From: an uncultured Verrucomicrobiota bacterium
GTDB lineage: Bacteria; Verrucomicrobiota; Verrucomicrobiia; Opitutales; Intestinicryptomonadaceae
Length of the DNA stretch: 39,196 bases
Reading direction: 5' to 3'
Assembly: GCA_949287395.1 (NCBI GenBank)
Contig: CASEFZ010000109.1
Location: forward strand, 1 to 39,196
Both the position numbers and the translations under genes were made by a program. Every line of letters starts with the position of its first letter. Position 1 is the stretch's first letter. The notes below the pieces were generated by a model. That model did no database searches and had not been told where the DNA came from. It was given only the letters and a program-made list of their open reading frames with translations. Shown here one piece after another: positions 30,559-35,161 of this stretch.

Positions 30559-31614
30559 CTAATCGCCCCCGCGCTGCGCCCCCTTAAAAAGCGACAACTC
30601 CGACTGCTTCGGACTCTGGTTTTTTTTGGGCGGCGTTGCAGGATTGTGAAGGTGCCTTGGAGCCCTTCCCGTGCGCTCCTCTATTGTCTGGGAGACCTCC
30701 TTTACAATCCTGTCGCAAATGCGCTGTATGTGCATTTTCAGCCACATTACGGTGGAACTCTCCGGAGTGTAAACATTCGGCCCGTATGCGTCTATGCGCC
30801 CGTTTTCAAGAAGCATGTCGTTTTGTTCGAACTCCGAACGCCTATCCGGGGTATAAACTGCGAAGGCCTTGCCGCCCCCATTTCTGACAACGGAAAATAC
30901 CGGCACGTCGCTTGGCCCGTCCGCTATGTAAATCATGTTCTTTATGGGAACGCGGCGGTCAGCCTCTAAAATCCGCGCGTTGACATCTATGGCCGGATTC
31001 TTATTGGTGCCCTTGTTTATCTCAAAGATAAAGCGAGTCTTGATTGTGTTGTCCACCATGACGCCTATCTGGTTTATCTGCGCGGACAAAGTTGACAAAT
31101 CAAACTCGGGCTGTCGGGAAAAATACGGGGGCAAGGGCTCCTCTATGAATTCGCAGCCAAAAATTCCGTCGACATACTTGGCCACGGCGCTGCCGCGTAT
31201 CATTTCGGCGAGGCCTGTGCTGACTATGTAGTGCTCAAGGCGTATGTCCAGCTTTGAGTAGGCGGGAGCCCTGACAACAGAGCGCAAGTCCGCAAAAAGA
31301 TCGGGTATGCCGTCGCAGAACTCCAATCGCCCGCCAAGCTCCCTGAGCTTGGCGTTGCTAAGCCCGTTCATATAGCCGCTCTTTACAAAACTTAAAAGAT
31401 GGTTTAAATAGACGGTTTCGGGAGAAACGCGTATTCCCCTGCTCTTGTAGAATTCGGGAAGCAAGTTTACTTCGCGCCAAAAGAGTTTTTCGTCTATGTT
31501 GTACTCTTTAAATATTGGCGTCTGCATGTAGCCCTTAATAAGGGTCTTGTCAAAATCCCAAATGCAGGCTATTATGTGTGTCTGCCTCAGCGAGGCGTCG
31601 GCATCATTCTTCAT
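30559..31614 (-). CDS. HAD-superfamily hydrolase
   Basis: A 351-residue cytoplasmic phosphatase-like protein. HAD motif I is CIWDFDKTLIKG (Asp20, Asp22). A helical cap follows. YIVSTGLAEM fits motif II, and the later MVDNTIKTRFIFEINKG contains a candidate motif III lysine. MIYIADGPSDVPVFSVV is motif IV with the metal-binding Asp pair. The protein is long for the family, and the last 50 residues (ERTGRAPRHLHNPATPPKKNQSPKQSE...) form a basic, proline-rich, probably disordered tail. Substrate unknown. It is transcribed alone, convergent with dinG and divergent from the regulator at 31977. No Shine-Dalgarno is seen before the ATG. Confidence 0.82.
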   Translation of the reverse strand: MKNDADASLRQTHIIACIWDFDKTLIKGYMQTPIFKEYNIDEKLFWREVNLLPEFYKSRGIRVSPETVYLNHLLSFVKSGYMNGLSNAKLRELGGRLEFCDGIPDLFADLRSVVRAPAYSKLDIRLEHYIVSTGLAEMIRGSAVAKYVDGIFGCEFIEEPLPPYFSRQPEFDLSTLSAQINQIGVMVDNTIKTRFIFEINKGTNKNPAIDVNARILEADRRVPIKNMIYIADGPSDVPVFSVVRNGGGKAFAVYTPDRRSEFEQNDMLLENGRIDAYGPNVYTPESSTVMWLKMHIQRICDRIVKEVSQTIEERTGRAPRHLHNPATPPKKNQSPKQSELSLFKGAQRGGD

Positions 31615-31976
31615 CGGGGCGGATTCTTAATATGCGCAAAAAAAATGCAAGTTTTTAGCTTTGCGGCTGCCCTACAACCGAAATTAAAAATTTTTCAGCG
31701 CTTAAACCGTAAAAAATCCACGCGGAAAAAGATCAAAGTTTTTTTCTGCAAGGCATTCAACGGGAAGCGCGGCAAAGAAATAAAAAATTTTTTGCCATTA
31801 GTCCCTTTCAAAGAGACATTGCAAGACTTGCCTTACACCGCATTTGAAAGTCGCTGCAACACGAATTACTACGCGCCGGGAAAAGTTGTGTTTTAGCCGG
31901 ATGTAAGAACAAGGCAATTTAGCATTTCCGCCCGGATACAGAAAGATTAAAAGGGAAGAGACAGGGAGTAAAATTT
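31615..31976. other. Divergent intergenic region before the regulator operon
   Basis: About 360 bp, A/T-rich with several poly-A/T blocks, between the HAD gene (-) and the regulator operon (+), so it must hold both promoters. I find no clear -24/-12 GG-GC sigma-54 element and no convincing gene. The ribosome site AGGGAG lies at the right end (31963-31968), 8 bases before the GTG start. Confidence 0.4.
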
Positions 31977-33710
31977 GTGTGGCGCAAAAATTCAAAAAAT
32001 GCTTTAATCCGGCAGAAATTTCAGATGCGCACAAAAGAAAAACCGACGAAAAAACCGCTCAAGGACGCGGGCGCGGAACTGCCCCACGGAGCTTCTGCGC
32101 TAAAAAAGGCCCGCAAGTCTAAGGGCGCGGGAAAAGCCTTAAAAAGGGCGGCATCCGCCGACAAAACTCCGCCTTATTGCGGAATTCCAACCGACAGGAA
32201 ACTTGTTTTGTCGGTTCTGCACAAGATAAGCAGAATTTTGGTGACAGTGCCCGATGTGCACGAGCTTTTGAGGGAAGTTTTAGACATATTGTGCACGCAA
32301 ATGGGGCTTTCAAGGGCAACCGTGACGCTTAGAAACGGCGACGCCCTTGTAATAACTGCCTCGCACGGCCTATCGGACGAGGAAATGAGGCGCGGCTTTT
32401 ACCGAATGGGAGAGGGCGTCACAGGCAGAGTTGCCGAAACGGGCAAGTCTATAATTGTTCCCGACATAAGCAAATCGGCGGATTTTTTAAACAGGACGCA
32501 AAGCCGGCAGATAAATTCCCGCACGGCCTTTCTTTGCGTGCCCATAAAGAGGGAGGGCAACCTTATAGGCACCCTCAGCATAGACAGGTTCGACCCAACC
32601 GAACAGACGCTGCAAACCGACGTAAAGCTGCTGGAAACGGTGGCCAATCTGATTGCCGAAGCCGTGGGCGTAATATTGGCCCAGCGCAGGGAAAACGAGA
32701 AACTCTCAAAGCAGAACCAGAGGCTGAGGCAGAAACTTCAGACGCAGTTGCATCCAAAAAGCCCGATAGGCACAAGCGCGTCCATTATAAAGACCTACGA
32801 GCAGCTACAGCGCGCCGGGGAGAGCACCTCACACATACTAATACGCGGAGAATACGGGGCCGGGAAAGATTTTGCCATGAGGGTGATAGCATCTTCGCCC
32901 ATCTGGAGGGACAAGCGCGTGGAAACGCTTGACTGCTCTACCCTCAGCGATTCCGTCATAGACGCCAAACTTTTTGGAACCGACGGATACGAGTCGTCGG
33001 CAGGGGCGCTCGAGAGGGTCGGAGACGGCATTGTATACCTCGACGCAATGGGCTTGATAGGCAAGCCGCTCCAGCTAAAGCTGCTGAAATTCATGAAATA
33101 CGCAACCTTCAAGAAGGTTGGTTCCGATACGGAAATACAGAGCAAGGCGCGCATAATAGCCTCGACCGCCGGAGACCTTGAAGCGCGCGTCGGAGACGGC
33201 ATAGTGCGCCAGGATTTCTACTATTTTTTTGCCGGCTCAACCATATTTATCCCCCCCCTGAGAAAGCGCCGCCGCGACATTCCGGCGCTGGCTAAATATT
33301 TTATGCGCAAGCACGCGTCGCTGAGGCAGAAAAAGGTTACCGACATATCCGATGGTGCAATGGGAATGCTCTGCGCCTACCACTGGCCAAGCAATGTTAG
33401 GGAGCTTGAAAATTGCATAGAAAGGGCCGTGATAATATCAGCAGGGCCCGTTATATGCGAAAGCGACCTTCCGCCTTCGCTTCAAACCCCGCAGTCAACC
33501 AATACCTCAAAATTTCGGGACGAAGGCTCCATAGACTTTCAAAAGATGGTTGGGGAATTCGAGCGAGACCTGATTGTGGAGGCTCTTGTTGCAAACGGCG
33601 GGAACGCCGCCGCGGCTGCGCGTTCGCTTTCGGTTTCCAGAAGAATATTCAACTATAAGACGGCAAAGCTTGGCATAACGCCCAAGACCTACCGTTCCAG
33701 GCTGAAATGA
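31977..33710 (+). CDS. NifA/NtrC-like GAF-AAA-Fis regulator with degenerate sigma-54 motifs
   Basis: A 577-residue transcription-factor homolog. It has a Lys-rich N-terminus (1-70), a GAF domain (about 75-232), a coiled linker, an AAA+ domain (about 264-500) and a Fis-type helix-turn-helix (about 525-572, GGNAAAAARSLSVSRRIFNYKTAKLGI). Walker A GEYGAGKD (291-298) is kept. The GAFTGA loop that contacts sigma-54 is absent: after KLFGTDG only YESSAGALERVGDG follows. Walker B reads YLDAMG, with Ala357 where the catalytic Glu of DE should be. The second Arg-finger position reads YYFF rather than YYRL. It probably does not activate sigma-54. The GTG start at 31977 has AGGGAG 8 bases upstream. The envelope genes follow. 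Confidence 0.87.
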   Translation: MWRKNSKNALIRQKFQMRTKEKPTKKPLKDAGAELPHGASALKKARKSKGAGKALKRAASADKTPPYCGIPTDRKLVLSVLHKISRILVTVPDVHELLREVLDILCTQMGLSRATVTLRNGDALVITASHGLSDEEMRRGFYRMGEGVTGRVAETGKSIIVPDISKSADFLNRTQSRQINSRTAFLCVPIKREGNLIGTLSIDRFDPTEQTLQTDVKLLETVANLIAEAVGVILAQRRENEKLSKQNQRLRQKLQTQLHPKSPIGTSASIIKTYEQLQRAGESTSHILIRGEYGAGKDFAMRVIASSPIWRDKRVETLDCSTLSDSVIDAKLFGTDGYESSAGALERVGDGIVYLDAMGLIGKPLQLKLLKFMKYATFKKVGSDTEIQSKARIIASTAGDLEARVGDGIVRQDFYYFFAGSTIFIPPLRKRRRDIPALAKYFMRKHASLRQKKVTDISDGAMGMLCAYHWPSNVRELENCIERAVIISAGPVICESDLPPSLQTPQSTNTSKFRDEGSIDFQKMVGEFERDLIVEALVANGGNAAAAARSLSVSRRIFNYKTAKLGITPKTYRSRLK

Positions 33711-33805
33711 GCCTGCGCGGCAAAAAGATTTGCGCGCGTTTAATGCAAATGCGTTTTCTGTTGCTATTTTGCGCAAATTATCTTGGAATTGCGCGGAAAA
33801 TGAAA

Positions 33806-35161
33806 ATGGGAGAATTTTTGAGAGTGTGCGTATGCGGCGCGCTTTTGTGTGCGTGCGTTCTTGCGCGCGCGGCCCTCGTTTGGGAGGAAGGCAAGGGGTG
33901 GACCATACAGGGCGGCATCATCGCCAACGTAGTTGGGGAAAATGTCAACGTTCAAAATGCGCTTGAGGCCATGAACGAGGGCAAGAAGGCCTTTGACGAG
34001 GGCGACTATTGGCTTGCGCTTGGCTACTACCAGACTGTTGTGCGCGACTATCCAACCTCGATATTTGCGCCCGAAGCCTACTATCAGATGGCCAAGGTTT
34101 ACCAGGCGCGCGGACAATTTGAAAATGCCTTCAACGCCTTCGAGGAAATAGTTAAGAACTACCCCGACTACCCAAACTTCAACATGGTTGTGGGCGCCGA
34201 ATACGAGCTTGCGTCGGTTATACAAGGCGGGGCAACTCCGTACCTTTGGGGGTGGTTCCCGTGGTTTACAAATTACAATGACGCAATAAAAATTTACGAG
34301 GCCGTTGTAAAAAATGCGCCCTACAGCGACTATGCGCCCATAGCCCTCATGAATGTTGCCCTTGTGGCAGAACAGGAGGGCACCTACGAAACGGCCTTTG
34401 ACGCCCTTGACCGTCTGATAAACACTTATCCCAAAAGCCTCTTCACCTCCGACGCCTACCTTCAGATGGCGAAAGTTTACCGCAAGCTTGTAGAGGGTCC
34501 GGAATACGACCAAACACCCACAAGAAACGCCATAAGTTTCTTTCACGACTACCTGATTTTATTTCCGCAGGAGGCAGAGGTCGCAAATGCCGAAGAAGGC
34601 CTTGAGGAAATGGAGGACACTCTTGCACGAAGCAGGCTTTTGATGGGAGACTTCTTTTATTACTACCGCAACAATTCCCTTGCCGCGTCGATTTTCTACA
34701 ACGAGACTATAACCATAGCCCCGAACAGCAAGGCTGCCGAAGAAGCTAAAGCGCAGCTTGCCAAAATAGAGAAAGGCATACCCGCCCCCATGACTCCGTA
34801 CGACTGGTTCTGGGGCAGGTATCAAAAACCCACCGTTGACCAGTTTGAGGATGAATCCAGGGTTGAGGAGATAAATAATGAAAATTTTGCCATTATGAGC
34901 CTCGACGATTTCTTGGCAACGCCCGGAGCTGTTGTGGAGGAGACTGTCACGCCGTCGGGCCAGCCAGTTTCCACGCAGTATTTTGCGCCGCTTTTTGGCG
35001 AGAGCCTCGACGATTTCCTCATGCAGGGCGAATCTTCGACGGTTCAGCCGGTTCCAAACACTTCGGTTCCTGAGGCCATGCAGAAGGCTGTTGCCGAGAA
35101 GGAGGCCGCACAAAAGGCTGAGAAGGCCGCGGCTGCCGACGGCGGCGGCTCAAAAGAATGA
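33806..35161 (+). CDS. BamD-like TPR outer-membrane assembly protein
   Basis: A 451-residue exported protein with TPR repeats like BamD/YfiO, which helps insert beta-barrel proteins. The signal sequence is MGEFLRVCVCGALLCACVLARA; no standard lipobox is seen. TPR-type repeats run from about residue 48 to 350 (AFDEGDYWLALGYYQTVVRDYPTS, AYYQMAKVYQARGQFENAF, IALMNVALVAEQEGTYETAF, NNSLAASIFYNETITIAPNS). The last 100 residues are acidic, then Ala/Lys/Glu-rich and probably disordered, making it longer than E. coli BamD (about 245 residues). I took the ATG at 33806 because GGAA lies 7 bases upstream. ATGs at 33800 and 33707 (overlapping the regulator stop as ATGA) are alternatives. lptE follows after 19 bp. 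Confidence 0.8.
   Translation: MGEFLRVCVCGALLCACVLARAALVWEEGKGWTIQGGIIANVVGENVNVQNALEAMNEGKKAFDEGDYWLALGYYQTVVRDYPTSIFAPEAYYQMAKVYQARGQFENAFNAFEEIVKNYPDYPNFNMVVGAEYELASVIQGGATPYLWGWFPWFTNYNDAIKIYEAVVKNAPYSDYAPIALMNVALVAEQEGTYETAFDALDRLINTYPKSLFTSDAYLQMAKVYRKLVEGPEYDQTPTRNAISFFHDYLILFPQEAEVANAEEGLEEMEDTLARSRLLMGDFFYYYRNNSLAASIFYNETITIAPNSKAAEEAKAQLAKIEKGIPAPMTPYDWFWGRYQKPTVDQFEDESRVEEINNENFAIMSLDDFLATPGAVVEETVTPSGQPVSTQYFAPLFGESLDDFLMQGESSTVQPVPNTSVPEAMQKAVAEKEAAQKAEKAAAADGGGSKE

Follow-up and report, generated by a model that had tools for sequence, protein, structure and literature searches.

GAFTGA-deleted EBPs, homologs of the ATP-driven sigma-54 activators, act at sigma-70 promoters (PMC3162934, PMC10274813). 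In the NtrC proteins of R. capsulatus and Caulobacter a deletion in loop 1 covers the GAFTGA motif, and both proteins work at promoters of this type; R. capsulatus NtrC requires the binding of ATP but not its hydrolysis, VpsR works without ATP, and Caulobacter NtrC, which has a receiver domain and a sensor kinase, is inactivated by a Walker B mutation (PMC10274813). VpsR, DhaR, HupR and YplP, which we compared by description, are listed as EBP paralogs that lack GAFTGA or depend on sigma-70 (PMC3162934); they belong to other lineages. E. coli TyrR has a shortened loop 1 and GKD after Walker A, with LDEIG and the full RxDxxxR motif kept. Finally, NifA (in Opitutales beside nifHDK; in A. vinelandii, PDB 9qq6) has the domain order GAF-AAA+-Fis, the GAFTGA motif and the Walker B pair DE.

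The protein described here, regulator A, is encoded at 31977..33710 (plus strand) of the window, i.e. the whole stretch of 39,196 nucleotides that was analysed, taken from a 1.93 Mb draft genome in 119 contigs. Judging from its open reading frame, Pfam matches and 13 orthologs in the genus, it appears to be a GAF-AAA+-Fis protein that derives from NifA and is no longer coupled to sigma-54. It shares domain order and ancestry with NifA; however, it has neither GAFTGA nor DE, and its family lacks nifDK. It resembles the two NtrC proteins in the deletion of loop 1 and differs from them in that it has a GAF domain, descends from NifA and has lost the Walker B Glu naturally. The first-pass annotation had proposed a sigma-54-independent regulator on the pattern of TyrR. 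Independence of sigma-54 is still the best reading, and the likeness to TyrR holds for the loop 1 deletion and GKD; it does not extend to LDEIG and RxDxxxR, both complete in TyrR, so regulator A has gone further. The class, sigma-54-independent EBP homologs, is already known and regulator A is a new variant of it; by analogy, it most likely works in the manner of R. capsulatus NtrC or TyrR, with the former the closer. It adds a repeated case of an ATP-driven sigma-54 activator becoming an ordinary regulator, and it is a caution that genes of this kind should not be annotated as sigma-54 activators.

Domains, motifs and predicted structure

The gene has a GTG start and codes for 577 amino acids. 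All the domains named by the first-pass annotation were recovered above the Pfam cut-offs: a GAF sensory domain (PF01590, 73.6 bits; residues 93-230, 32253..32666, plus strand), Sigma54_activat (PF00158, 96.4 bits against a cut-off of 20.2; residues 264-418), the AAA lid (residues 429-510) and HTH_8 (26.1 bits; residues 527-561), the last within a Fis-type DNA-binding helix-turn-helix aligned at 33555..33677 (plus strand). The N-terminal ∼70 residues are unconserved; ortholog matches mostly begin at residues 69-77. The best-scoring NCBIfam family is NifA (TIGR01817), yet with 298 bits the match stays below the cut-off of 528.85; the TyrR model (NF008085) gives 138 bits against a cut-off of 576.

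Alignment placed the functional motifs, all on the plus strand (single residues follow PspF numbering). Walker A, GEYGAGKD (residues 291-298, 32847..32870), is intact. At the loop 1 site (32979..33002) the sequence reads LFG-TDGYESSA-GALE, with TDGYESSA where GAFTGA is absent, and the distance from LFG to the Walker B Asp is 20 residues versus 26 in every canonical homolog counted. Walker B is YLDAMG (residues 354-359, 33036..33053), with Ala replacing the catalytic Glu. The RxDxxxR motif is RQDFYYF (residues 411-417, 33207..33227), in which R162 and D164 are present and R168 is Phe. The Arg of sensor II is present in WPSNVREL (33384..33407). The intact Walker A, the missing loop, the missing Glu and the Phe at the second Arg-finger position had all been noticed at first pass and were read in the same way here.

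Thus, among the features of a functional sigma-54 EBP, PF00158 and a genomic RpoN were found; the GAFTGA loop, the Walker B DE and the full RxDxxxR were not. The EBP architecture with loop 1 deleted is that of a GAFTGA-less EBP homolog. By the curated models regulator A is neither NifA nor TyrR and, judged by its motifs, it is not a functional sigma-54 activator.

An AlphaFold2 model built on a 44-row alignment had pLDDT 87 and pTM 0.54, the latter meaning that domain placement is uncertain. Its AAA+ core superimposed on NtrC1 with 1.4 Å over 242 residues (Z 29.7); further structural matches were ZraR, FleQ, PspF, NifA and VpsR (Z 26.4 for VpsR). The AAA+ fold is therefore predicted by the model to be retained. 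Neither the alignments nor the model contained a displaced, extended or substitute loop 1. A shifted GAFTGA-like loop, which the first-pass annotation had named as refuting its interpretation, was rejected on the same data. One could still suppose that regulator A couples to sigma-54 through another surface, as RpoN is encoded in 17 of the 19 genomes of the family. With no displaced loop, with the catalytic Glu also gone, and with changes in GAFTGA reported to weaken or eliminate activation through sigma-54 (PMC3162934), such coupling is very improbable.

Fixation of the losses and ancestry

Orthologs were searched for in 54 related genomes; the genus is represented by 14. One of the 14, a one-contig genome (G011), gave no candidate for any query, RpoN included; it was taken as unreadable and left outside the counts. 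Each of the 13 readable genomes has an ortholog of regulator A: 12 are full-length with open frames and one is truncated at the end of its contig. The first-pass annotation had asked whether the losses are fixed in related bacteria, and in the genus they are. The GAFTGA loop is absent from all 13 orthologs, and the Walker B Glu position is occupied by Ala (6) or Ser (7). The Walker A Lys and GKD are present in all 12 orthologs covering the site; the Walker B Asp, R162, D164 and the sensor II Arg are each present in 13/13. Position R168 is more variable (Gln in eight orthologs, Phe in two, Arg in two, Ala in one), so the Arg has been lost in 11 of the 13, and Phe is limited to the window species and its nearest relative.

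Mean identity among the orthologs is 70% in the helix-turn-helix, which agrees with its description at first pass as well kept, and 75% in the AAA lid. The AAA core is at 61%, versus 84% for the canonical paralog B in the same genomes. Canonical homologs share 86 invariant AAA positions; all copies of regulator A retain 44% of these, and 22% are gone from every copy. Several residues are newly fixed: GKE has become GKDF, and an R to W, an F to Y and a sensor I A to S replacement are each found in 13/13. Canonical residues swapped for new fixed ones point to a new function rather than to decay. For ortholog pairs with estimable dS, dN/dS is ∼0.05-0.10; regulator A is under purifying selection, with dS near saturation.

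The higher divergence of the AAA core in regulator A than in B would fit a functionless, decaying remnant, and the motif losses might in principle be assembly errors. We find either idea barely credible, given 12 full-length orthologs with open frames, the low dN/dS, the fixation of new residues where motifs have changed, and the recurrence of these losses in genomes assembled separately. Since all 13 orthologs lack the loop and the Walker B Glu, regulator A is, on sequence comparison, a stable derived protein, neither a sequencing error nor a decaying gene.

The genus has three GAF-AAA+-Fis paralogs, A, B and C, and the sister genera g2 and g3 have A-like copies, A2. In trees, A, C and A2 share a branch whose sister is B (support 97-99), and the Opitutales NifA proteins lie outside; A and B have a close common ancestor and identical domain order. 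Two of the outgroup NifA genes adjoin nifH or nifDK; nifDK (PF00148) was found in 0/19 genomes of the family. As far as sequences tell, the whole A/B/C set is rooted in NifA.

The window genome encodes RpoN (contig C41, 179 bits), a point the first-pass annotation had left to be checked, and among its paralogs is a canonical one that has both GAFTGA and DE. Genome-wide loss of sigma-54 was thus rejected as the reason for the change in regulator A; with RpoN and the canonical paralog present, sigma-54 activation is covered elsewhere. A parallel is seen in family f19, whose nif-less genus g37 has homologs with GSFSGA, GLFAGA (with an altered Arg finger), GAPAGT or an intact GAFTGA; RpoN is present in the genomes of the eroded NifA-type homologs (L138, L140 and L141 in G115, G068 and G213). 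On the simplest story, erosion of GAFTGA is under way there independently. As the same motif wears away independently in a nif-less lineage, the comparison suggests that NifA is released from its tie to sigma-54 once nitrogenase is lost. For the A/B/C set the simplest story would likewise be that, once released from nitrogenase, a NifA-type protein found a new role near gltBD and duplicated, whereupon copies lost their sigma-54 coupling; we infer that nif loss came first. Outside the family, the best full-length matches read among 273 genomes of the order were canonical NifA types or members of the f19 group, and none was of the GAFTGA-deleted A or C type. Within this one order stand a canonical paralog, two paralogs altered in different ways and outgroups with nif genes, which makes the succession of losses readable.

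Paralogs and mode of action

The sigma-54 activator domain has four good matches in the window genome, two strong and two weaker; a related-locus search of genome contigs matched only the closest ortholog and one distant EBP. Paralog B is canonical (GSFTGA or GAFTGA, DE, RxDxxxR) and lies mostly directly after gltB-gltD or gltD (L041-L049, L051-L054, L057; glt genes named from sequence), a position that suggests relocation of a NifA-like regulator to glutamate synthase. Paralog C (L065 at G000:C105, L050, L055, L056, L058-L067) adjoins mnmA (tRNA 2-thiouridylase) in 13/13 genomes. It has lost the loop 1 GAFTGA and the Arg finger (R162 in 0/13, D164 in 2/13) and has Walker A and DE (Lys, D107 and E108 each in 13/13); in L066 and L067 loop 1 is nearly gone, with 8 of 26 residues remaining. 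What is new here, from the aligned motifs, is a paralog altered in a way complementary to A.

In PspF, the E108A variant has a Vmax of 0.15 versus 39.5 per min (∼0.4% of wild type) and a lower Km, and R168A has a Km of >4500 µM, R168 being needed for normal nucleotide affinity (PMC3419264); Walker B, R162 and R168 variants were also examined in mixtures (PMC3419264; see also PMC4132715). We consider it probable that regulator A is a duplicated NifA-type EBP turned into a sigma-54-independent DNA-binding transcription factor that binds ATP and is poor at hydrolysing it. This reading follows from the genus-wide loss of the loop and the catalytic Glu, the retention of Walker A, the first Arg finger, sensor II and the helix-turn-helix, and the action of GAFTGA-deleted EBPs at sigma-70 promoters. 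By analogy, regulator A would work as an ATP-loaded, GAF-gated oligomer: it would bind ATP and hydrolyse it very poorly; upon sensing of a ligand by the GAF domain, ATP-bound subunits would assemble through R162 at the gamma-phosphate; the oligomer would bind DNA through the Fis helix-turn-helix and activate or repress sigma-70-type promoters by contact or occupancy. As R168 is lost in 11/13 orthologs, the binding of ATP could also be weak, as in a VpsR-like protein.

The complementary losses allow another scheme, in which A and C form one mixed ring, C giving the ATP sites and A the Arg finger in trans. ATP would then be hydrolysed by the mixed ring alone, and the ring, having no sigma-54 loops, would be a DNA-binding switch driven by ATP. 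All 13 readable genomes have both A and C, with E108 absent and R162 and D164 present in every A and the reverse pattern in C; C retains its ATP-site residues despite an AAA core identity down to 49%; A2 lacks both E108 and R162, and its genera, g2 and g3, yielded no C; and mixing Walker-B-defective with R162-defective subunits of PspF restored ATPase activity (PMC3419264). On the other hand, A and C are unlinked, at separate loci with different neighbours (the HAD-like gene and mnmA, respectively); R162 and D164 in A are statistically unremarkable, with 44% of canonical-invariant AAA positions kept in all A; R162 could serve A alone as gamma-phosphate sensor; and A2 represents two lineages only. 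We regard the mixed ring as unlikely. Its fuller version is a shade more unlikely: that, after NifA-type duplication following nitrogenase loss, C kept the ATP-cleaving half-site and A the Arg finger in trans, and that the obligate mixed ring controls sigma-70 promoters through ATP. Either way, the A-C pair is a direct test case for a split ATPase ring; if true, such a ring would repeat in nature what the trans-complementation experiment did with PspF.

Regulator A might instead modulate the canonical B, joining its hexamers or occupying its sites and so damping sigma-54 activation of gltBD. PspF rings tolerate some Walker-B-defective subunits and need adjacent intact L1 loops (PMC4132715), so that A subunits would be expected to poison B rings; A and B also have a close ancestor and their domain order in common. 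However, the recognition helices differ (SVSRRILNYKI in A versus GATQRIILYKI in B), and in two genomes, G004 (97% complete) and G006 (86%), no B was found where A and C persist; modulation of B is improbable.

Genomic neighbourhood and promoter elements

The first-pass annotation had placed regulator A at the head of an outer-membrane assembly operon. Genes of this kind do follow it in the window, in the order bamD-like, lptE-like, rpe, the first being a TPR gene at 33707..35161 (plus strand; NCBIfam TIGR03302, over cut-off). This adjacency is absent elsewhere in the genus: bamD, lptE and rpe stand together in all 12 other genus genomes in which bamD was found, always apart from regulator A, which lies beside bamD only in the window genome. 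In g2 the arrangement differs, and bamD and A2 are ∼5 kb apart. With the three genes conserved as a unit without the regulator, the operon link was rejected. As matches of relatives begin at residue 12 or later, most at 16-45, bamD probably starts near 33800, not at the overlapping ATG at 33707.

The neighbour conserved in the genus is a HAD-like gene (30559..31614, minus strand), directly adjoining regulator A in 9 of 11 genomes with both at readable loci (seven divergent, two in the same direction). In G001 one ORF lies between them and in G013 they are unlinked; the remaining neighbours vary between genomes. The HAD-like product scored under the Pfam cut-off and had no PDB relative by sequence. 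Under the sigma-54-independent reading, the likeliest local target would be the short promoter region shared with this divergent gene, together with the regulator's own promoter. A counterpoint is that the HAD-like gene, found across Opitutales with 52-61% identity outside the family, is present through most of the order in the absence of regulator A and is therefore independent of it.

NifA-type sites have the form TGT-N10-ACA. The window contained two such sites versus 3.9 expected, with none at the regulator A locus; a sigma-54 promoter pattern, uninformative at genome scale, had 17 matches in the whole genome versus 10 in the reversed control, again with none at this locus. The element CTTGC(A/G) is conserved in the intergenic region between the HAD-like gene and regulator A, shortly before the HAD start (31644-31652 in the window; also L070-L073, L078 and L079). 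CTTGCA is not enriched in the window and, compared by eye, we read it as a putative core promoter or leader element.
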